Below the pieces are notes generated by a model. It worked only from the letters and a program-made list of their open reading frames with translations. It made no database searches and was not told the DNA's origin. From Ardenticatena sp. (lineage in GTDB: Bacteria > Chloroflexota > Anaerolineae > Ardenticatenales > Ardenticatenaceae), in assembly GCA_015487975.1 (NCBI GenBank), contig WFOS01000003.1, positions 1-64,000 on the forward strand: a stretch of DNA of 64,000 nt. Direction: 5' to 3'. Positions within the stretch are counted from its first letter, which is position 1; each line of letters opens with the position of its first letter. The position numbers and the translations under genes were made by a program. Positions 363-17,474 of the stretch are shown here, one piece after another.

Positions 363-421
363 GGACGAAGCGCAACAGCCACACAGGAGAGTATCAAGAC
401 AGAAGAAGTGCAGGTAGGCAT

Positions 422-3400
422 ATGCTCTCGAAACTCATTCAACGGCAAGTACCTATTGGTAGCAAAGTCATATTCTGGCTAAAGAACGGGCGTGAGATCT
501 CTGGTGAGCTAATCGAGCTAGGCAGGGATCATATCACGCTGGAGAATGAAAACGGCGTCGCCACGATTCTGGTAGAGATGATCGGGGCTTGGGAGGTTGT
601 GACAAGTGAAATGGCAGATAGACCCGACAAGACTGAATCCGGCCTCCCTGTGACAGACACAAGTAGTGAGGCAGTCACACAAGCAGATGTCACGATATCG
701 GCATCTTCCATACCAGCAGAAAGCCTCCAGCCAGTACTCAAAAAATTGATTGAAATTGAAGCCCGTCTCGAAGCTCAATTGCAAACCGCCCGGATTGAGT
801 TGGAAGAACCAGATTTCTTCCTGCCGATTTCCAGAATGTCAAAACGAACTCATAAGAAGATCGAGGAAGCGTGGAATAGAGTTGTCAATCGGTACCAGTA
901 CGCCAAGAAGATAAATGAACTAAGCAAGAAATTTGGTCGCATTCAGTCAATTGTGGCCGAATTGGAGTCATTGGCCGAGATTTTGCCCAATTCGGCAACC
1001 GTCAAAAGACATCTGGCCTACTGCTACTTTTTGGCGGGAAGAGAGAAAGAAGCCTTCAATTGTTACAAGATGACCGCCACAATTTCACGAGAAGCGGCAG
1101 ATTGGTATAACCTCGCTGTCATCGCGTTACGCAGTGGTCAGAATCCTATCGCCGTCTACGCTCTAGAACAATGGTTTTTACAAAGGCCCATTACTGAGAG
1201 ACCAAATGCTTGGTATGTGTATGTTAACTTGCTAAGATGCAACGGCAACTACTCACTTTTGCGGAGTTTGTGCGAGAACATAGGCCGTGACCAAACCGAG
1301 CAAGAACTCGTTCTTCTATTGGAGACTGGCATTTTTCTTCTCAAATCTATTAAAAAAGATGCCATAGCAACTGACATAACCAGAAGATGGCTAGAAGAAC
1401 AGGTCTCACAGCATCTTGTATTAGAGGCCGTTAAGAATCTGGAAGGACAACCTGACGAGGCTTATCGTCAAGTTGTGGAGGAATTCCAGGAAAGCAAGGA
1501 CAGCCAAAAAACCCAGGCAACCGAAAGAAAGGCGCCTCAAATGCCGCAAGGCTATATTTATACATACAAACGGGATCGTAACTTTGGTTTCTTGCGAGAT
1601 TTGGGTGGAAACAGTTACTTTTTCCATCGCAGCGCAATCATAGATCCTACTTTGTTTGATGAACTTAATCGTTTGGAGATAGGGGGGGAAATTCCGGTTA
1701 CCTTTGAACCGGCTCAGGGACCCAAAGGCCCACTTGCATTGAGAGTAGCGTTATTTCGGACCAATAAGGATCTTTTCGAGATTGCTAACCAATGTGCGCA
1801 GAATGGAGACTATAGTCAAGCAATTGGTTACATCAGGCAACTACTAGAAAGAGAACCGGAATATCCAGAAGCGCGAGAACTTTATGATAAATGGCGCGAG
1901 TATGCCCGCCTTAGTGGTGTGCCGCGAGGGTCGAATCCTTATGCCCGGGCAAAACGGGTCCAGTTGATTGAAAAAGACTTGGATAGAGCCGCGCAACTCT
2001 TCCGCCAAGCGATTAGAGAAGGGGATAATGTCGAGAGCGCCATCAAAGATTTGGCTGCTTTGTATGTTCAGCAGGGCAAACCTGAAGAAGCCATCAGATT
2101 GCTGGAGCAACAGCGTAAGAGAATTCGAGATCAGCAGTCTGTAGATAATATGCTGATCGGTTTCTACCAGAATGCCGGCCAATATGAACAGGCAATCGCG
2201 CTTTTGCGCAAGAAGCTAGGTCAGACGCCCAGGGAGAAAAAGACTAGCGTTTTATGGCAAATAGGGAACTGTTACCTGCGATGCGAGAATTATACTCAGG
2301 CCCGAGAGACATTTGAGCAAGTGCTCGAGTTGCATCCTGATAATCTGGCTGCACGGCGCAACATTGCTATTTGCCATTTCAAACAACAGCGGTATGATGA
2401 CGCCGAGAGGATTCTGAAAGAAATTCTTGATGCTTCGCCTGATGCGAAGGCTGCTGAACTGCTTGAAGCGATTACACAAGCCAGAACGACTGGCGAATCC
2501 ACTCAATTGGAAGAGATTATTATCGAAACTACACTTTCGGAATTCTCCAGTGAAATCAGCGACTTCACACAGTTCTTCTTGGATCGATGTGATTTTCCAG
2601 GGGTTTCACCTGAACGAATAGAGAGAGACGAGAATGGTATAGCAAGGTATAGAGGCTCTGAGAGAGATGCTAAATTTGACCTCAAGAGATTAGAGGAAGT
2701 TGCCACTCAACTAGGCACGCGGCGATCCCGTGACCGTGCCGAGTATTATCTATCCGCGGCGAAGATAATATCTATCGTTGAAGGGCAGAGTTCCAACTTG
2801 TTCTACCGGTATCTTTGCCGCAGTTTTGCATCCAGTGGCGATGCAACTGTAGCTGAAGGTAAGCCGCTAGATGCTGCCCGTGAACTTTATTGCGAAGCTC
2901 TCAGCGTTTATGACAGAGATAGAGGCAAAAGAAAAGATGAACAAGATGCTGTCAATGCACTTGTTCGATTTCTATTCTCGACATTGGGGCAGGCTCAAGT
3001 CCCCCTTACTCCGAGCATTCCCTCTATTGACGAAACTGTTGAGCGCGTTCTTGGCAGTCATCCTCAGCGAGACCGCGTATTTAGCGCGATAACGTATTTG
3101 ACATTTCGTAGTCGTTATGCTGCAAATCGGGTGCTGAAACGCCTATTCGTTGGGACTACCTTGCAGGTGATGGCACTAGACTATCTCCGCAGCCAAGGCA
3201 TCTCAGTGCCTGACAAGATCGAAGGATTGGATGGGTTTATTGAACTCTGGAATGAAGTGCGGCGGTTAAAGCTAGATGAATGGCGTGCTATATTAAGCGA
3301 ATTTCGCTTTCTGGCCAGGATGGAGTTAACTACTGCATCCCTAGAGGACGGCATAGAACGGCTTAAATCGGTTAACCATCGCCTGTTTTTTGGCTTAGAC

Positions 3401-5203
3401 CAGGACCGTGCCAGGCAGTTGCAAAATATCCTCGAGACTGCACTCGAACTGGTCAAGCAGGCCTCTTTTGAAGAACGTGAGCGATTATGTATTCAAATAG
3501 GGAATGGCTGTAATGAGTTACTACGAGAAATCGAATCCAGCCCCACGCGCTTGTCCGTCGAAGGGCTGTATCCGGTGGTCAAGGCTCTTCAAAACAAAGT
3601 GAGCAGATATTTAGAAGAGTTGTATGAGATCTCTACTCCCCAGCTTGAGATTAGGCTTCCTAAAGAATCTTATATCCCAGACAGTAACCAGCACATCGAT
3701 GTTCAGATTGTGGTTGCGAACAAAACGGGATGCAGTCCTGCGGAATCCCTGGAGTTGATTGTCCAGGAAAGCGAAGATGGTTTGTTCGCTGTTAATGCAT
3801 CAGAAATAAAACTCGATAGATCTTTGCGAGGGAGCGATCAGCACATTTTGGAAGTGCCTATTCGGATTACGCAGAGTGCTCTGGATGCACAAACATTCTC
3901 TTTACCAGTATATGCTCAATATCGTACCAGAGCGGGAGAGATTGAACAGACACCTGTGCACAATTTTTCCATTCGTCTCTACTCCGAAGAAGAGTTCGAG
4001 GAAATAGAAAACCCATATGCTGCTTATGCGGAGGGAGGCATTGTTGGGGATCCCACAATGTTCTACGGGCGTGATGAACTCATTGAGAACATCATCCGAG
4101 CCATTCAAAGAGCCGGAACACAGAGCAAGAGCATTGTTATTTTCGGTCAAAAGCGAGCTGGTAAATCTTCTATCTTATATCATCTTAAACGGAAAATGGA
4201 GGCCAGTGGGAATTTATTAGTGATAGATATAGGAAATATTGGCTCGATTCTGGACGAACACTCTCAAATCCCGTTTGAATACCAGATCCTCTGGAGCATT
4301 TTGAGAAAACTTCGGGACGCCATTGAGGACGTGGTTGAAGAGCGGGGCTTGCCACCCTTGAACTTGATCTTTCCCCAGGATCGCGAGTTCTACGAACATC
4401 CTAGCCCCTTAGTCAAATTTAGAGATGTGTTTGATGAATACAAACGTCGAACTGCTCGAACAGAAGGCTGGAAGCATATCCAGGTCGTCCTGCTCATAGA
4501 TGAATTCTCGTACATATACAGCCAAATTGTCAGCGGAAAGATATCGGAATCGTTTATGAAAAACTGGAAAGCTTTGCTGCAAGAGAACTACTTCAGCGTT
4601 GTATTGGCTGGTCAAGATGTGATGCCCAAGTTTAAGCAGCGTTTTCCCAACGAATTTGGCACCACCCAAGATGAACGAGTCAGTTACCTCAAACGGGAAG
4701 ACGCCATAAGATTGACAGATGAACCCATTCGCATTGGAGGGCGGAATGGGGAAAGTCGCTATCGGGAACGGGCAATAGAACGCATCCTCGAGTTAACTGC
4801 CGGTAGTCCTTTTTACATCCAGATTGTTTGTGATCGGTTAGTCAAATATATGAACCGTAAACGTGCGAGCCTGATCACAGAGGCAGATGTCGAACAAGTC
4901 AAGACCGAACTGGTGCGAGGCGTCAATGCGTTGGGATTGGATAAGTTTGACAACCTTATCAATTCCGGTGACACATCCGAGGATGCTATTAGTGATGAAG
5001 ATGCTTTGAAAGTCCTCAAGGCCATTGCTATCAATAGCCAGACTGGACCCTGCAATCGTAATAGCATCTCCTGCGAAACAGAAAAACCGATAGACGTAAT
5101 TCTGGAAGATCTGGTAAACCGGGAAGTGGTTGAACGAGAACGAGGCAGGTACTATCGAATCCGTGTAGGTTTATTCAGAGATTGGCTCACAATTCATCAA
5201 TAA
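422..5203 (+). CDS. Large LSM/TPR/cold-shock-like protein with C-terminal P-loop NTPase
   Basis: This 1593-residue protein is not a named family that I recognise, but its parts are readable. Residues about 10-58 resemble an Sm/LSM fold (GSKVIFWLKNGREISGELIE). A charged coiled-coil stretch follows, then TPR-like repeats (about 165-245). About 376-445 resembles a cold-shock domain, with FGFLRD and YFFHRSAI in place of the RNP motifs. A second TPR array covers about 455-690. After a long helical region, a beta-rich segment (about 1060-1180) leads into a P-loop NTPase introduced by FYGRDE. Its Walker A is GQKRAGKSS (about 1241) and Walker B VVLLIDEF (about 1355), and the protein ends in a winged-helix-like tail. 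The architecture suggests RNA sensing coupled to an NTPase switch. It lies 15 bp upstream of the HEPN gene, inside the attC-flanked segment. Confidence 0.8.
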   Translation: MLSKLIQRQVPIGSKVIFWLKNGREISGELIELGRDHITLENENGVATILVEMIGAWEVVTSEMADRPDKTESGLPVTDTSSEAVTQADVTISASSIPAESLQPVLKKLIEIEARLEAQLQTARIELEEPDFFLPISRMSKRTHKKIEEAWNRVVNRYQYAKKINELSKKFGRIQSIVAELESLAEILPNSATVKRHLAYCYFLAGREKEAFNCYKMTATISREAADWYNLAVIALRSGQNPIAVYALEQWFLQRPITERPNAWYVYVNLLRCNGNYSLLRSLCENIGRDQTEQELVLLLETGIFLLKSIKKDAIATDITRRWLEEQVSQHLVLEAVKNLEGQPDEAYRQVVEEFQESKDSQKTQATERKAPQMPQGYIYTYKRDRNFGFLRDLGGNSYFFHRSAIIDPTLFDELNRLEIGGEIPVTFEPAQGPKGPLALRVALFRTNKDLFEIANQCAQNGDYSQAIGYIRQLLEREPEYPEARELYDKWREYARLSGVPRGSNPYARAKRVQLIEKDLDRAAQLFRQAIREGDNVESAIKDLAALYVQQGKPEEAIRLLEQQRKRIRDQQSVDNMLIGFYQNAGQYEQAIALLRKKLGQTPREKKTSVLWQIGNCYLRCENYTQARETFEQVLELHPDNLAARRNIAICHFKQQRYDDAERILKEILDASPDAKAAELLEAITQARTTGESTQLEEIIIETTLSEFSSEISDFTQFFLDRCDFPGVSPERIERDENGIARYRGSERDAKFDLKRLEEVATQLGTRRSRDRAEYYLSAAKIISIVEGQSSNLFYRYLCRSFASSGDATVAEGKPLDAARELYCEALSVYDRDRGKRKDEQDAVNALVRFLFSTLGQAQVPLTPSIPSIDETVERVLGSHPQRDRVFSAITYLTFRSRYAANRVLKRLFVGTTLQVMALDYLRSQGISVPDKIEGLDGFIELWNEVRRLKLDEWRAILSEFRFLARMELTTASLEDGIERLKSVNHRLFFGLDQDRARQLQNILETALELVKQASFEERERLCIQIGNGCNELLREIESSPTRLSVEGLYPVVKALQNKVSRYLEELYEISTPQLEIRLPKESYIPDSNQHIDVQIVVANKTGCSPAESLELIVQESEDGLFAVNASEIKLDRSLRGSDQHILEVPIRITQSALDAQTFSLPVYAQYRTRAGEIEQTPVHNFSIRLYSEEEFEEIENPYAAYAEGGIVGDPTMFYGRDELIENIIRAIQRAGTQSKSIVIFGQKRAGKSSILYHLKRKMEASGNLLVIDIGNIGSILDEHSQIPFEYQILWSILRKLRDAIEDVVEERGLPPLNLIFPQDREFYEHPSPLVKFRDVFDEYKRRTARTEGWKHIQVVLLIDEFSYIYSQIVSGKISESFMKNWKALLQENYFSVVLAGQDVMPKFKQRFPNEFGTTQDERVSYLKREDAIRLTDEPIRIGGRNGESRYRERAIERILELTAGSPFYIQIVCDRLVKYMNRKRASLITEADVEQVKTELVRGVNALGLDKFDNLINSGDTSEDAISDEDALKVLKAIAINSQTGPCNRNSISCETEKPIDVILEDLVNREVVERERGRYYRIRVGLFRDWLTIHQ

Positions 5204-5218
5204 AGTGGAAAGGTCAAG

Positions 5219-6730
5219 ATGAATCGAGATTTTGCGAATCCTTTTGCTGATTATGGCACCATAGTGCACGGGGAGCGATTTATAGGCCGAAAGAATGGCC
5301 TCCAAGTCATCGAGAGCAGGGTGATTCGACCACGAGATCCGGGTAATCTGGCAATTATCGGTGATTCTCGTATTGGAAAGAGTAGTCTGGTTTACAAAGC
5401 AGTTATTGATCGTAGAGACGAACTGCTCGCAAAGCGGCTCCTTCCTATATGGTTCACTTTATCGAATTATGATCATGCGCCTGTGTTTTTCCGCTCTCTT
5501 GTAGCCCGCTGCATTGACGAGCTGAAAGAACTAGGTTGGTTCTCACTCAACATTCAACAAGCGGCCGAACGAGCTTTGCAAGATGCGCTTTCGTGGAGCG
5601 AAGGCTATTGGCGCATTCAGCGCTTCTTTGAGAAAGTGCGCAAAGAGGGAATTAGAGTCCTCATAATTCTTGACGAATTTGATCACGCGCGACATCTTTT
5701 TCGAGAAGACATCTCAGCTTTTCAAGGTTTGCGTGAGCTTTCTTACCGGCCAGAATGGCGCGTTTCCTATATCGTCACCTCTCGCCGCACTATTCGTGAT
5801 ATTGAATTGCAAACTCAATCTATTTCAACCCTAGATGGCATCTTTTATAAGTATTACCTTAGCATGTTTGACGTAGACGGCATTGAAGAGTATTTTGACC
5901 GCTTGACATCTATCGGCATACCAGATAATGACTCTTTGAGGGAGAAGATAACGTTCTATTGTGGTGGACATCCCTATTTATTGGAATTGCTTGGTTATGA
6001 AGTGGTTGAATTTTTCCGGGAGGAGCAAGTTGTAGACATTGATAAGGCCGCTCGTCGTTCAATGCCCGCCTTTTTAAGCCAGTATGACCGTATGAGGGAG
6101 TTGCTGCGTGAAGAAGGAAAACTTGACAAGATAATTCAGGTTTTATTTGGTCCTGTTGTCGATGTAAAATGGACCGATGTAGAAAACTTGCTCAAGTATG
6201 GATTTATCAAGCAGGATGAGCAAGGCACTTATACAGCGTTCTCAGAGCACTTTCAGACTTATCTGGAAATTGTAGAACGACAATTTGATTGGGATTTGTG
6301 GCCCGTGTGGCGACAGACAGAAAAGGCGTTGCGTCAGCTAATAACGCGGATGATGAGAAAAAAGTATGGAGATAATTGGATCGAGGCATTGGAGAAAGCG
6401 AAATCTCATTTGAAGAGAACCATCTTTGACCGCTGTCGAGAAGCACAGGCAAAAGAAGAAAGGGTCTATGGTAATCGGGCCTCAAGCAACTTGATTGACT
6501 TCACATACCCACAGGATTTATTTACCATCATCTTCGCTGAGTGGGATGTTTTCAAAGAGATTTTCGGCCAGGACAAGAATTACTGGGGGCAACGCTCACA
6601 ACTACTAGCAAAGATCAGGAATCCCTATGCTCATAACAGAGACGAGGTTGTTTACGATTATGAGCGACAGATTGCCGAGGGTTACTGTCGAGAGATCCTT
6701 GCTGTTATAAAGCAAACAGACGCAATATGA
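5219..6730 (+). CDS. P-loop NTPase with C-terminal Swt1-like HEPN domain
   Basis: The protein has 503 residues and starts behind GGAAAGG. An AAA/STAND-like ATPase occupies about 1-330. It begins with a GRKNGL element, as many STAND ATPases do; Walker A is GDSRIGKSS (48-56) and Walker B VLIILDEF (147-154). The C-terminal 130 residues look like a HEPN domain of the Swt1 type, ending in a helix with RNPYAH (467-472), the R-x4-H motif that forms the RNase active site in HEPN toxins. HEPN domains are known RNA-cleaving effectors in toxin-antitoxin, abortive-infection and CRISPR systems. Paired with the upstream LSM/CSD NTPase it is the probable effector. An attC-like site follows 36 bp after the stop codon. 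RNase activity is inferred. Confidence 0.82.
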   Translation: MNRDFANPFADYGTIVHGERFIGRKNGLQVIESRVIRPRDPGNLAIIGDSRIGKSSLVYKAVIDRRDELLAKRLLPIWFTLSNYDHAPVFFRSLVARCIDELKELGWFSLNIQQAAERALQDALSWSEGYWRIQRFFEKVRKEGIRVLIILDEFDHARHLFREDISAFQGLRELSYRPEWRVSYIVTSRRTIRDIELQTQSISTLDGIFYKYYLSMFDVDGIEEYFDRLTSIGIPDNDSLREKITFYCGGHPYLLELLGYEVVEFFREEQVVDIDKAARRSMPAFLSQYDRMRELLREEGKLDKIIQVLFGPVVDVKWTDVENLLKYGFIKQDEQGTYTAFSEHFQTYLEIVERQFDWDLWPVWRQTEKALRQLITRMMRKKYGDNWIEALEKAKSHLKRTIFDRCREAQAKEERVYGNRASSNLIDFTYPQDLFTIIFAEWDVFKEIFGQDKNYWGQRSQLLAKIRNPYAHNRDEVVYDYERQIAEGYCREILAVIKQTDAI

Positions 6731-6766
6731 GTGTTCTGGTGTGGTTTGTGTGATCCAAAAGCGTCC

Positions 6767-6838
<72 letters not shown>

Positions 6839-6865
6839 GTTGTGGGAGGAAAACACAAATACCTG

Positions 6866-6895
6866 TTGGACACGATTTTGCAATTCGAATACAAT
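6866..6895 (+). promoter_or_regulatory. Candidate promoter for miaB
   Basis: TTGGAC (6866-6871) and TACAAT (6890-6895) are separated by 18 bp, facing miaB. The -10 matches the consensus at five of six positions; the -35 is weaker. It lies just outside the attC-like site, so miaB would keep its own promoter whatever sits in the cassette. Confidence 0.45.
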
Positions 6896-6911
6896 ACCTC
6901 GACCACATCGG

Positions 6912-6930
6912 CGGGCGCGAGCCCGTTTTT
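6912..6930 (+). terminator. Short hairpin plus T-tract in the miaB leader
   Basis: CGGGC (6912-6916), a GCGA tetraloop and GCCCG (6921-6925) are followed by TTTTT. A 5-bp stem is short for a full terminator. It begins only about 16 bp after the candidate -10 of miaB and ends 30 bp before the start codon. It may attenuate miaB or stop transcription arriving from the cassette. Confidence 0.35.
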
Positions 6931-6960
6931 CACGTTGAATGCGCAAGAAGGTGGTGCGCC

Positions 6961-8343
6961 ATGGGAAAGAAATATCACATTTGGACGATTGGATGTCAGA
7001 TGAATGTTGCCGATTCCCAGCGGTTGGGGTCGGAATTGGAGAAACGTGGCTATGAGTGGACGGATGCCGTCGAGGAAGCCGATGTCATCGTGCTGAATAC
7101 CTGTGTGGTACGCGAACAGGCCGAGCAGAAAATCTATGGTCGCCTGGGGTCGCTGAAACCACTCAAAATGCGCGGCGAGGGTGGTCCCATCATCGGCTTG
7201 ATGGGGTGTCTGGTGGGGGTGAAAAATCCCGCCCCGCTGCGGAAAGCGTGGCCATGGGTGGATGTCTTCATGCCACCAAGCGAGCCGGGCCCGTTGTTGG
7301 CGTACCTCGACGGCCGCGAGTGGGATTACGATGCCTACTACGAGCAGGTCAAGCAGCGCCAAGCCATCAATGCTATGCAGGATGGCGAGATTGTCTTGCC
7401 GGCGCATGTGCGCGGCAAACAGGTGACGGCCCACGTCCCCATCATCTACGGGTGCGATCACGTCTGTTCGTTCTGCATCATCCCCTATCGCCGCGGGCGT
7501 GAACGCAGTCGCCGTATTGGCGACATTGTGCAGGAAGTGCGCAGCCTGGTGGAGCAGGGCGTGAAGGAAGTGACGCTGTTGGGGCAAATTGTGGACCGCT
7601 ATGGCTACGACGTGCCCGATGGGCCCCGTTTGCCTGATTTGTTGCGTGTTCTGCACGATATCGAAGGGTTGGAGCGCATTCGCTTCCTCACGTCGCATCC
7701 CAACTACATGACCGATGAGTTGCTGCGCACCGTCGCTGAATTGCCCAAAGTGATGGAGCATATCGAAGTGCCAGTGCAGGCGGGCAACGATGAGGTCTTG
7801 CGCCGTATGCGCCGTGGCTACACAGTGGACGATTACCGCCACCTCATTGACCGTATCCGCGAACTCGTGCCTGGGGCAAGCATTATCACCGACATTATCG
7901 TTGGTTTCCCGGGTGAAACCGAAGCGCAATTCATGGATACCTACAACTTGCTGGCGGAATTGAAGTTGGACAAGGCGCATATCGCCTGTTTCAGCCCACG
8001 GCCGCACACCGCCGCAGCTCGTTGGGAAGATGATGTGCCGTGGCCAGAAAAAGAACGTCGCCGTAAATTGCTGGACGACCTGATGCACGACATCATGGCG
8101 GAAATCAACAGCGCCTACCTGGACCAGACGGTTGAGGTGCTGGTTGAAGATTTGCACAAGGGCAAGTGGCGTGGGCGTACACGCACCAACAAACTGGTCT
8201 TCTTCGAAGATGAGCGCGATCGTCGTGGTGATGTGGCGCAGGTGCGTATCACCTGGACGGGGCCATACAGCATGCAGGGTGTGCCTGCCGACGCACCCCC
8301 CAAAATGCCCGTGCTCGATATGGAGAACATCATCGCGCCATGA
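6961..8343 (+). CDS. miaB: tRNA-2-methylthio-N6-dimethylallyladenosine synthase
   Basis: A cytoplasmic radical-SAM methylthiotransferase of 460 residues that converts i6A37 to ms2i6A37 in tRNAs reading UNN codons. The N-terminal UPF0004 domain has its three cluster cysteines (C12 in GCQMN, C48, C83). The radical-SAM motif CxxxCxxC is at C165/C169/C172, followed by the family's RRGRERSR signature. A TRAM-like RNA-binding tail ends the protein. The start at 6961 gives the normal family N-terminus (MGKKYHIWTIGCQMN) behind an AGAAGGTGGTG site. It is a housekeeping gene and marks the right boundary of the foreign segment. Confidence 0.95.
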   Translation: MGKKYHIWTIGCQMNVADSQRLGSELEKRGYEWTDAVEEADVIVLNTCVVREQAEQKIYGRLGSLKPLKMRGEGGPIIGLMGCLVGVKNPAPLRKAWPWVDVFMPPSEPGPLLAYLDGREWDYDAYYEQVKQRQAINAMQDGEIVLPAHVRGKQVTAHVPIIYGCDHVCSFCIIPYRRGRERSRRIGDIVQEVRSLVEQGVKEVTLLGQIVDRYGYDVPDGPRLPDLLRVLHDIEGLERIRFLTSHPNYMTDELLRTVAELPKVMEHIEVPVQAGNDEVLRRMRRGYTVDDYRHLIDRIRELVPGASIITDIIVGFPGETEAQFMDTYNLLAELKLDKAHIACFSPRPHTAAARWEDDVPWPEKERRRKLLDDLMHDIMAEINSAYLDQTVEVLVEDLHKGKWRGRTRTNKLVFFEDERDRRGDVAQVRITWTGPYSMQGVPADAPPKMPVLDMENIIAP

Positions 8344-14009: not shown

Positions 14010-14927
14010 TTACTTGATGCACGACTTGTCGTCGGGTTCCCACCATGGCGATGGCCGTGCGCTGTCGGTGTCATAGTCGGCTGGTTGGTGAGAAGGGAGG
14101 TGTTCGATGTCCAAGAGATGGTCGATGTCGGGCAGAATGCGTTGCAACAATTTGGTTTCTCGAAATCGCTCGCGGCATTTCCGACGCACGCGACTCTCGA
14201 CACGCTCGGTCGACTCTGCTACGACTTCGAAGGCTGTTGGAATGGTGAGCTCGGTTTTGTATAAGTCGGCAATGTCGTATACGAAAGAAAGTTGTTTGCC
14301 GGTATGAATGAAACCCAATGCCGGCGAATAGCCACCCGCCAAAATAGCTGCGTGGCAAAGTCCATTGAGAAGTGCATTGGCGGCCGACAATGCACGGTTG
14401 ATTGGATCGCCTGCGCGCCAATTGTGACGCTCATAGCGCCGTCCCGACCAGGGCACGCCATACTTCTGGCTTGCGGCATAATAGACCGACCGTACCCGGT
14501 TTCCTTCACGCCCGCGAATTTGTTGCAATGTCCACGACGGGTCTAGTGGTTCACCAAACCGCATAGCATACATTCGTCGCACCACTTCGAGGCGCTTCTG
14601 GGGATCGCTGACCAGTGCTGCTTGATGGAGCAGCCGATAGGCATGTCGTGTTTCTCCCATGCCTTGGGCATAGAAGCGAGTTGCCTCTTCTCCTACCCAA
14701 AGGATCGTACACCCATGCTCGGCTAAAATGCGCACTGCCGCATGTGTGATTCGTGTCCCAGGCCCAAGTAGCAACACGGCCAGCGCTGCGACAGGAATCA
14801 TAACGCGTCCTTCGTCTTCACGAATGTATTCGATGGCCTGTTGGCGCCGTTGAATGATGGCATGCTCTACATAAAGATAGGTGAGACTATCACGCAACAG
14901 GGGGAGGTCATGTAGGTTTTTGGGCAT
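14010..14927 (-). CDS. cas1: CRISPR integrase Cas1 (type I-E)
   Basis: 305 residues from the ATG at 14927, the length of E. coli Cas1. The metal-binding residues fall at E141 (GREGNRVR), H208 (GFIHTG) and D218/D221 (YDIADLYKTE), the same numbers as in the E. coli enzyme. It forms the Cas1-Cas2 integrase. A strong intercistronic hairpin separates it from cas6e, so the adaptation genes may be expressed at a different level from the interference genes. Confidence 0.97.
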   Translation of the reverse strand: MPKNLHDLPLLRDSLTYLYVEHAIIQRRQQAIEYIREDEGRVMIPVAALAVLLLGPGTRITHAAVRILAEHGCTILWVGEEATRFYAQGMGETRHAYRLLHQAALVSDPQKRLEVVRRMYAMRFGEPLDPSWTLQQIRGREGNRVRSVYYAASQKYGVPWSGRRYERHNWRAGDPINRALSAANALLNGLCHAAILAGGYSPALGFIHTGKQLSFVYDIADLYKTELTIPTAFEVVAESTERVESRVRRKCRERFRETKLLQRILPDIDHLLDIEHLPSHQPADYDTDSARPSPWWEPDDKSCIK

Positions 14928-14952
14928 CTCTATCCCTCTCTTTCGAACCGTC

Positions 14953-14985
14953 ACGGGCGCTCGCGCAGCATGCACGAGCGCCCGT
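14953..14985 (-). promoter_or_regulatory. Intercistronic hairpin between cas6e and cas1
   Basis: ACGGGCGCTCG (14953-14963) pairs perfectly with CGAGCGCCCGT (14975-14985) over an 11-nt loop, in the 65-bp gap of the cas operon. No T-tract follows, so it is more likely an mRNA-stability or partial-termination element than a full terminator. Confidence 0.6.
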
Positions 14986-14992
14986 CAGACAA

Positions 14993-15661
14993 TCACGCAG
15001 GTGCCAGTGAAAGTAGACCAAATCCGACACTTTTTCCGCTACCGATACCTCGTTGTACGGTCTGCCGAAAGGTCTCAGGCTCTTCGACTCGCAATACCCC
15101 GTCGAAACGCACGCCATAGAAGGTCATTTTGTGCGTCCGTTCGCCCTGGCGTCGGTAGCTGATGAACTTCTGACCAGAGCCAATTCGAACTGCTAGCAGC
15201 CGGGCGCCCCCAGCGTGCAATTTGCGCGCTAGCCAACGGTGTTGGTCTTCCTCACGGTACAATTCTACCCGCATGCCATGTTTGCGCCCCTCTGCCTTGA
15301 TTTTCTTGGTTGGATTCGCAAACAATCGAAAGACCAGCCGCTGACCAGGGTGAAACACCAATTCGATTTTCTTGACCTGCGGGTTTTCGGCGACATCGAA
15401 CGGCAATTCCCATGTTGATAACAAGTAACGCCCACGATCGGTATCGTCGAGAAAAGCCCAATCAGGCTTCGTGTGTGATTGCACCAAAACCACGGGCAAT
15501 CCGGTGCGCGGTTGCACATCGACACGAAAGAGAACACGCTCTCCGGGGGGCAAAGGTGTCGGAAAAGCGTGCCAGAGTGTGCAGTGCATCTGGTATGGGC
15601 GAGCAATCTCGCTTTGAACTTGTCGCGAGCGAGGGTTGAGAAAAAGCCTCGAAAGATACAT
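14993..15661 (-). CDS. cas6e: CRISPR pre-crRNA endoribonuclease Cas6e (CasE)
   Basis: 222 residues from the ATG at 15661, which overlaps the cas5e stop codon by one base. Typical features are the N-terminal MYLSRLFLNPRSRQV and the conserved histidine region YQMHCTLWHAFP. The C-terminal glycine-rich loop is GIGSGKSVGFG. Cas6e cuts the pre-crRNA at the base of the repeat hairpin and stays bound as part of Cascade. The repeat hairpin in the adjacent array is its expected substrate. Confidence 0.95.
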   Translation of the reverse strand: MYLSRLFLNPRSRQVQSEIARPYQMHCTLWHAFPTPLPPGERVLFRVDVQPRTGLPVVLVQSHTKPDWAFLDDTDRGRYLLSTWELPFDVAENPQVKKIELVFHPGQRLVFRLFANPTKKIKAEGRKHGMRVELYREEDQHRWLARKLHAGGARLLAVRIGSGQKFISYRRQGERTHKMTFYGVRFDGVLRVEEPETFRQTVQRGIGSGKSVGFGLLSLAPA

Positions 15662-16320
15662 CACGCTCCCTCCTCCACTCCATCGGCTGGTATTGGGCAT
15701 GATGTGAACCGTACGTAGCGAGGGGCAAAACGCCGCTCGGCAAACGAAATGGGTTGGTCGGGGCGTACGACAGGTCCATTGGGGTCCTCGATAACCAGTC
15801 GGAGCGTGGGACCGCTATGACGAGTCGTGAGCAACGGATACGTGCACAAGGCATCTTCCAACGGCTCGCCCGCTCGCAGCCCATCGGCCAACCAGATGGG
15901 TGCTCCGGGGACGAACGCCTTGCGCCCCAAGAAGAGCGGCCAGGCGGGATTGCGCAAGGCTGCATGGAGATGACGCAACTGTTCGAGGTCGTTGCCTTCC
16001 AGCCCTACTAAGAAGGCAGCGTCGGCTAAGTAGTAGCGGCGCGAAACCTCTGTTGCTTTGATCCCACCACTCGCTTTGTATACGTCTTGTGCTGTGTGAT
16101 AATCCACCTCGACACGCCCTTCGCGGTCCACCCGTACACCCATGCGTAGAGCAGCCAGATCGGTGATGGGAGCATGGCGGGGCCGCCCCAAAGCAGCGGC
16201 GAGCAGCCCCACCACGCCCGACTTGGAAGGCTCGCGGCCTGTGTCACGCACAGTGAAGCGGCTCGAAACACCCCATGATTGCATGGGGCCCATCAGGCGA
16301 AGCAAAAGTGTGTGGGGCAT
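15661..16320 (-). CDS. cas5: Cascade subunit Cas5e (CasD)
   Basis: 219 residues from the ATG at 16320, with GGAGG 7 nt upstream; another in-frame ATG two codons earlier is too close to that site. The start MPHTLLLRLMGPMQSWG and the SKSGVVGLLAAALG segment are diagnostic of subtype I-E Cas5. It binds the 5' handle of the crRNA. The gene is separated by 2 bp from cas7 and overlaps cas6e by one base, so the Cascade genes are translationally linked. Confidence 0.95.
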   Translation of the reverse strand: MPHTLLLRLMGPMQSWGVSSRFTVRDTGREPSKSGVVGLLAAALGRPRHAPITDLAALRMGVRVDREGRVEVDYHTAQDVYKASGGIKATEVSRRYYLADAAFLVGLEGNDLEQLRHLHAALRNPAWPLFLGRKAFVPGAPIWLADGLRAGEPLEDALCTYPLLTTRHSGPTLRLVIEDPNGPVVRPDQPISFAERRFAPRYVRFTSCPIPADGVEEGA

Positions 16321-16322
16321 CC

Positions 16323-17474
16323 TCATGCCTCCTTGGTTGCCAGTTTGCCGACGACAGATTGTACCCACTGCTCCACATTGTCTTGGACGGTATCTTGTAA
16401 ATGCACAAGTACGCCGTTGGTTTCCGGCACTGTGAGGGCAAAGGGGTGAATACCCTGGTTCCCGTACACATGAATGAGGCGCCCCCAATAGGCATCGAGG
16501 GCTGCGATGGAAGGCCGCACCAGGCCGCCATCACGATCTGGGCGTACAGGTCGCTCGAAAGCATTGGCCAGCGACCAAGCCATACCATCCGTGCGCACCA
16601 CAGCCAGGACGAAATCCGGTGGGTTGAGCGCGGCGAAGGCATTTTGCTTACCCGTCGGGATGGCACGTAATGCAGCCAGCAAGAAGCCTTTCAGCGTGCG
16701 ATGTGCCAAACCCACGTCGCCCCCAAGATTCTTGACCAGTTGCTGCCAATGGAGGCGGGCATAGCGATAATACGTAGCACTGTTGAAAGGTGTCATGCCC
16801 ATATGGCCGGAACCGCTTTCCTCATCGGTGAGCAGATCATCGACGGCTGTGAAGAAATCGAAATCCATCTCCACACGGTGTGTGGAAATGGCATGCGCTA
16901 CCTGACAGGCCGCATCCAAATTGAGGTCGGGCTTGTCGGCCAACATGCGGCCAAAGAGGGCAATGTCGGGTGCGCTCGTGCGGCCTTTGGTCGTCTTCAG
17001 CCACTGTTTCACCAAGGTGGCGTATGGTTCGGCTTTTGCATCAGGGGATTGACCGTCGGTGGGGGCAGCTTCCAAGGCTGCGTCCCACGCATCCAGTAAC
17101 GCACGGGCGATCTCGGCATATTCGTCGTCACTCAAATAGAGCAGCACGCTTGTGCGATCGGGGGCATTTTTGTCCATTTTCCCGACGAAAGCGGCGGCGA
17201 ATGCACGCGCGACCCGTTCGGTCTCGTCTGGCGCCTTGCCACTTGCCATCAACTTTTCGCTCAGACGGCGCGTCATCCAGCGGGTACGCAGGGCAGGCGG
17301 CACACCGGTTGTTTGTGCAAAGATGGGTTCGCGGCGAATCGCTCGTTTGATGGCCTGTGATGAAATGCGGGCGCGGCGCACACCGCCGAATTCGGCATCT
17401 TTGGGGTTGCCAGTATCGTCGCGGTTCAGGTTGGAAGGGGCAAAGTTCTGAATGATGTGCAGTTCGATGAACAT
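16323..17474 (-). CDS. cas7: Cascade backbone subunit Cas7e (CasC/Cse4)
   Basis: 383 residues. The N-terminus MFIELHIIQNFAPSNLNRDDTGNPKDAEFGG... and the following RRARISSQAIKRAIR are the hallmark of Cse4/CasC. Six copies normally polymerise along the crRNA and form the backbone of Cascade. It starts 42 bp after cse2, a gap that contains a GGAGAAC ribosome site and no terminator. Confidence 0.96.
   Translation of the reverse strand: MFIELHIIQNFAPSNLNRDDTGNPKDAEFGGVRRARISSQAIKRAIRREPIFAQTTGVPPALRTRWMTRRLSEKLMASGKAPDETERVARAFAAAFVGKMDKNAPDRTSVLLYLSDDEYAEIARALLDAWDAALEAAPTDGQSPDAKAEPYATLVKQWLKTTKGRTSAPDIALFGRMLADKPDLNLDAACQVAHAISTHRVEMDFDFFTAVDDLLTDEESGSGHMGMTPFNSATYYRYARLHWQQLVKNLGGDVGLAHRTLKGFLLAALRAIPTGKQNAFAALNPPDFVLAVVRTDGMAWSLANAFERPVRPDRDGGLVRPSIAALDAYWGRLIHVYGNQGIHPFALTVPETNGVLVHLQDTVQDNVEQWVQSVVGKLATKEA

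Follow-up and report, generated by a model that had tools for sequence, protein, structure and literature searches.

A two-gene pair of switch NTPases with a HEPN domain in Ardenticatena sp.: a candidate conflict system that looks like a large integron gene cassette

The window analyzed here covers the opening 64 kb of contig C3 in an Ardenticatena sp. assembly of 116 contigs, and it carries near its left end a gene pair, A and B, flanked by two attC-like sites. An open reading frame check of the window returned both genes at the coordinates already assigned to them, 422-5203 and 5219-6730, separated by 15 bp and with AAAGG preceding the ATG of gene B. The G+C content of the pair is 0.45-0.49, versus approximately 0.57 in the surrounding window; the tight linkage and low G+C pointed out in an earlier note on this DNA were thus both evident. 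A scan for promoters and terminators gave nothing above the level of shuffled sequence. The features of the locus are as follows.

293-362, + strand: upstream attC-like site (GCCTAAC...GTTAGGC); fold z -0.78, not significant alone
422-5203, + strand: gene A, 1593 aa; Sm/LSm-like barrel, TPR, cold-shock domain (CSD), TPR, helical region, beta domain and STAND/Orc-like NTPase; proposed sensor/regulator
422-607, + strand: residues 1-62 of A, putative Sm/SH3-like barrel of one helix and five strands
1547-1753, + strand: residues 376-444 of A, cold-shock (OB-fold) domain by profile and AlphaFold/Foldseek
4004-5200, + strand: residues 1195-1593 of A, P-loop NTPase with Walker A, Walker B and a conserved C-terminal tail
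4145, + strand: Walker A of A, GQKRAGKSS, residue 1242, intact
4490, + strand: Walker B of A, LLIDEF, residue 1357, intact
5219-6730, + strand: gene B, 503 aa; STAND/Orc-like NTPase and Swt1-like HEPN; proposed effector
6296-6727, + strand: residues 360-503 of B, HEPN_Swt1 (PF18731), with RNPYAHNR at nt 6617
6767-6838, + strand: downstream attC-like site (GCCCAAC...GTTGGAC); long hairpin with single-base bulges, z -4.2

Pfam recognized the TPR arrays of protein A (TPR_19, 1.9e-29) and an AAA/STAND-like NTPase at its C-terminus, as the earlier note had read them. The cold-shock-like module that it had also proposed was borderline in the window protein alone (5.8e-6; 26.5 bits, just under the cut-off of 27); however, the same domain in one relative cleared the cut-off at 30.7 bits, and a profile built from 16 A homologues retrieved solved cold-shock proteins at 6.6e-10. 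The OB fold was also seen in the AlphaFold model and its Foldseek matches. Judged by the family profile, which is firm, and by the structure model, residues 376-444 are a cold-shock domain. This domain is missing from the Poribacteria branch and from some cyanobacteria, so the design does not depend on it.

The N-terminal 62 residues of A are kept in all homologues that retain that end, even at 18-27% identity. An LSM-like module had been suggested for this region, and the suggestion stood in part: the AlphaFold model has a helix followed by five strands, which is the Sm order, and the family profile matched the EDC3 LSm domain (4e-4) and SmD3 (within 4e-4 to 1e-3). However, Pfam LSM had no match in the window protein, and the best profile match was the SH3-like domain of BirA (1.2e-4). 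We therefore call the region an Sm/SH3-like barrel, in which the Sm assignment is a weak sequence match and RNA binding is putative. In a comparison with the orthologue at L075, each domain of A was under purifying selection (dN/dS 0.04-0.17), the sole exception being the linker at residues 63-98 (dN/dS 1.0).

Protein B has its Walker A motif at residue 48, and the P-loop NTPases of A and B are both intact, so that two switch NTPases are present as the earlier note had claimed. The AlphaFold model of B (pLDDT 89) has as Foldseek neighbours the archaeal ATPases 2qen/2fna, Orc1/Cdc6, a STAND-TPR protein, the NRC4 resistosome and Avs5. The C-terminal region scored 38.9 bits with PF18731 against a curated cut-off of 27.5, and its catalytic motif, R467-x4-H472, fits the R-x4-6-H pattern. 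Among 25 B homologues, R474 is invariant and R467, P469 and H472 nearly so, and the domain has a dN/dS of 0.078. By these sequence criteria B is a member of the HEPN_Swt1 domain family, as had been proposed, and RNase activity is predicted.

A search within the phylum gave five close A homologues, each followed by a B. Our scan of 84,980 species genomes extended this to at least 35 loci with A relatives, a lower bound because two short peptide patterns set the limit for distant relatives. The relatives occur mainly in Chloroflexota, Poribacteria, Latescibacterota, Cyanobacteria and Bacteroidota, and also in single bins labelled Spirochaetota, Bacillota, Gammaproteobacteria, Hydrogenedentes, Eubacterium and Methanoregula, the last being the one archaeal bin. 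Hand counting from the open reading frame tables showed that B comes immediately after A in 31 of the 34 informative loci (L107 ends too early to be informative) and that A and B are fused in one, L101; the exceptions are L103, which has no B, and L104, in which B lies on the other strand. The tree distances of A and B correlate over 26 loci (r 0.84). The A tree mixes phyla, a Chloroflexota bin and a Spirochaeta bin being sisters with support 99, although these two bins share a sequencing-run name and may be mis-binned. No relative of the pair was found in viral contigs, and the only match in plasmids was a distant one to the NTPase alone.

The co-occurrence of the two genes elsewhere, near defence genes, had been proposed as a check on the reading; the genes do co-occur, but most neighbourhoods hold ordinary metabolic or transport genes, and known or candidate defence genes were identified beside only a few loci, among them L093 and L080. 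At L093, in a Spirochaeta bin, a PLD-helicase gene (4697-7432; 3.8e-235) is close to the pair; at L080, in an Oscillatoriaceae bin, the nearby gene encodes NERD and UvrD domains (14657-16537; 2.6e-133). A downstream gene of the histone deacetylase family was considered as a third component and rejected, as this conserved gene was seen in Poribacteria only and was judged to be chromosomal.

Most B proteins retain the R-x4-H motif, and the partner gene is kept at other loci, but its effector is not HEPN throughout. The motif is lost from the B protein of Tengunoibacter (L057/L098), which has gained a tail with RNDRTH, and from that of Thermogemmatispora (L058/L099), which has gained a Ser/Thr kinase (2e-37). 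The Methanoregula-labelled A-B fusion has a Schlafen AlbA_2 domain at its C-terminal end (1.5e-8), and in a Bacteroidales B protein (L089) HEPN is missing, the next ORF being hydrophobic and membrane-like. In L090 and L092 the HEPN motif is lost with no visible replacement. The Walker motifs of B are intact in the window and in nearly all homologues, and are partly eroded in L057/L098 and L058/L099. The effector is thus swapped by lineage, for a kinase, Schlafen/AlbA_2, a membrane-like protein or a HEPN-like tail, while the rest of the pair stays, and this gives independent support for a conflict system.

The integron context was traced from the two flanking sites, which are the only ones that an attC scan found in the 64 kb. 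Because shuffled windows gave 0-3 matches each, little weight attaches to the scan by itself; the case for attC rests on the position of the sites, the hairpin, a sequence match and an integron integrase (IntI). The upstream site shares 79% identity with an attC-like site of the array that adjoins IntI on contig C10, where the integrase is complete (TIGR02249, 483.7 bits; cut-off 265). That contig (G000:C10, L124, 1-4713) carries the integrase at 3715-4713, divergent cassette-like ORFs and the attC-like site at 477-546. Contigs C3 and C10 both start in array-like sequence, and the C3-C10 junction is unassembled. On the minus strand of the window at 1-130, upstream of the first attC-like site, a small truncated ORF (MKQEAVKRIMAEAQ...) is cut by the contig end and is possibly the previous cassette. 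Integrases above the cut-off were also present in three genomes of the same family or class (G002, G004 and G007); the same-genus genome G001 has one that looks broken and falls short of the cut-off.

The nucleotide relative at L075 (85%) is homologous over 364-6800 of the window, from just past the upstream attC-like site into the downstream one, and its contig ends inside attC-like sequence. The gene beside the L075 pair, which we take from its sequence to be UvrC-like, stands in place of miaB. The same-genus genome G001 has no A-B pair and carries miaB at 97% identity, next to a gene that is presumably folD-like. The simplest account is that the A-B pair looks like an integron gene cassette of approximately 6.4 kb, in agreement with the location in a mobile cassette given in the earlier note. 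It resembles the gene cassettes of chromosomal integrons in the attC-like sites at its edges and in the IntI and cassette-like ORFs of the genome. However, integron cassettes usually hold a single gene and are far smaller than 6.4 kb, so that a two-gene cassette of this length is unusually large. The same scan found no attC at the edges of more distant A-B loci, and other vehicles therefore presumably moved the pair elsewhere; the integron accounts for its mobility only at the window locus and perhaps also at L075.

That the pair is not a named system, as had been thought, agrees with our searches. NCBIfam and PADLOC gave only generic TPR, AAA or HEPN similarity for A and B, with PADLOC PDC-M34B matching only the HEPN part of B, and none of the Pfam, NCBIfam and PADLOC models reached covers the pair as a whole. 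A literature search that reached few subscription papers and no supplements found no description of the pair. The nearest domain combination, in which a Swt1-like HEPN occurs together with STAND-ATPase, TPR and S1 domains, is that of proteins reported by Anantharaman et al. 2013 (PMC3710099), namely Npun_F6454, MED222_16016 and Desac_1927. These share with A-B the HEPN family, a STAND NTPase, TPRs and an OB-fold RNA-binding domain; by their description they are fusions, whereas A-B divides its domains between two genes and has a second NTPase as well as an Sm-like barrel. CoCoNuT systems (PMC11090510) likewise combine CSD and HEPN domains with predicted RNA targeting, but they are built on a McrB-type GTPase with coiled coils, which was not found in the A-B pair.

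Avs (AVAST) proteins share with A-B a STAND NTPase switch and TPR modules, in one partner in our case, as well as the structural similarity of Avs5. Avs are single proteins with an N-terminal effector and a C-terminal TPR sensor, whereas A-B comprises two proteins with the effector at the C-terminus of the second.

The closest rival explanation is that A-B is a divergent member of the two-gene system predicted by Kaur et al. 2021 (PMC8195603), which has two nSTAND2 NTPases, one of them inactive and fused to GT4 or HEPN. The two have in common adjacent genes, a STAND NTPase in each, a variable effector on one that is often HEPN, and mobility, and HEPN, the effector in the window, is one of the two effectors that the paper describes. 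The distant relatives L068, L073 and L074 carry nSTAND2 domains, and in L101 the part that corresponds to B reaches 22.6 where the cut-off is 24, with a weak score in L059 too. However, the nSTAND2 profile PF20702 was unmatched by B at E<=1 and by the NTPase of A at E<=10, and the NTP motifs of B are intact in nearly all homologues, whereas in the paper's system the effector-bearing STAND domain is eroded. The accessible text of the paper describes no LSM, TPR or CSD modules such as A possesses, and the effectors seen in A-B are HEPN, kinase, AlbA_2 and a membrane-like ORF, with no GT4. We regard membership as a real but minority possibility, and A-B is apparently a distinct, unnamed family of the same kind as the predicted nSTAND2 two-gene system.

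Taken together, we favour, with some confidence, an abortive-infection-like conflict system built on a two-component NTP switch, with an integron gene cassette as its carrier in this genome. Protein A would be the sensor and regulator, its Sm-like barrel, CSD and TPR arrays binding an RNA, ribonucleoprotein or protein trigger, and the STAND NTPase at its C-terminus would relay the signal. The NTPase of B may then co-assemble with that of A in an NTP-driven manner, so that HEPN domains would pair up as an active dimeric RNase, cutting RNA and leading to growth stop or cell death. That A senses and B executes would follow the logic of STAND systems, and is supported by the linkage, the fusion, the switch motifs and the interchangeable effector; the A-B complex, the RNA trigger, the RNase activity, the cell arrest and a phage or other invader as target are inferred. 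The evidence counted for a conflict system comprises adjacency, fusion, tree correlation, HEPN invariance, dN/dS, effector swapping, the fold of B and the attC/IntI context, together with absence from G001, patchy spread and the defence genes beside two loci. Against it are the few known defence genes nearby, the loss of the HEPN motif in L090 and L092, the absence of the CSD in part of the family and the weak sequence match of the Sm barrel.

The RNA-binding-type domains and the kinase outputs of some members would also suit a host regulator that acts in RNA metabolism or stress signalling, as would the winged-helix, kinase, beta-propeller and GAF modules of the wider paired-NTPase family; however, the patchy spread across phyla, the absence from the same-genus genome, the cassette context and the fast effector change make such a role rather unlikely. 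Less likely still is a toxin-antitoxin or addiction module in which A restrains an RNase toxin B and addiction rather than immunity retains the module in the integron array: tight linkage, co-evolution and the classic place of HEPN toxins in such modules, which integron arrays often hold, speak for it, but A, at 1593 aa, is oversize for an antitoxin and has both an intact NTPase and putative sensor modules, the effector may be a kinase or AlbA_2 domain, and the attC context is found at the window locus only.

The conflict-system reading can be carried further, and here we are tentative. The pair may be an RNA-sensing prokaryotic immune receptor not described before, in which the Sm-barrel/cold-shock/TPR protein would recognize invader RNA or ribonucleoprotein and, by way of a hetero-oligomer of two active STAND NTPases, turn on an interchangeable effector (HEPN RNase, kinase, Schlafen or membrane protein), and which would spread across phyla, with a large integron cassette as vehicle in at least one lineage. 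A-B offers a compact candidate, open to test, for a bacterial counterpart of NLR-type immunity with RNA as the likely trigger; to our knowledge, RNA sensing is little documented for STAND systems. The effector swaps on a constant switch amount to experiments made by nature. The cassette context, for its part, would supply a very large case, with two genes, for the view of chromosomal integrons as stores of defence systems.

The Chloroflexota loci L060-L074 share only the C-terminal NTPase of A, with beta-propellers, HEAT, GAF or membrane regions in place of its other modules, and were not accepted as family members; some of them adjoin an nSTAND2 protein that also carries a kinase or a winged helix. 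At the Dictyobacter locus (L059:6780-13113), a Mutator-family transposase splits gene A at the CSD, and B is still open.
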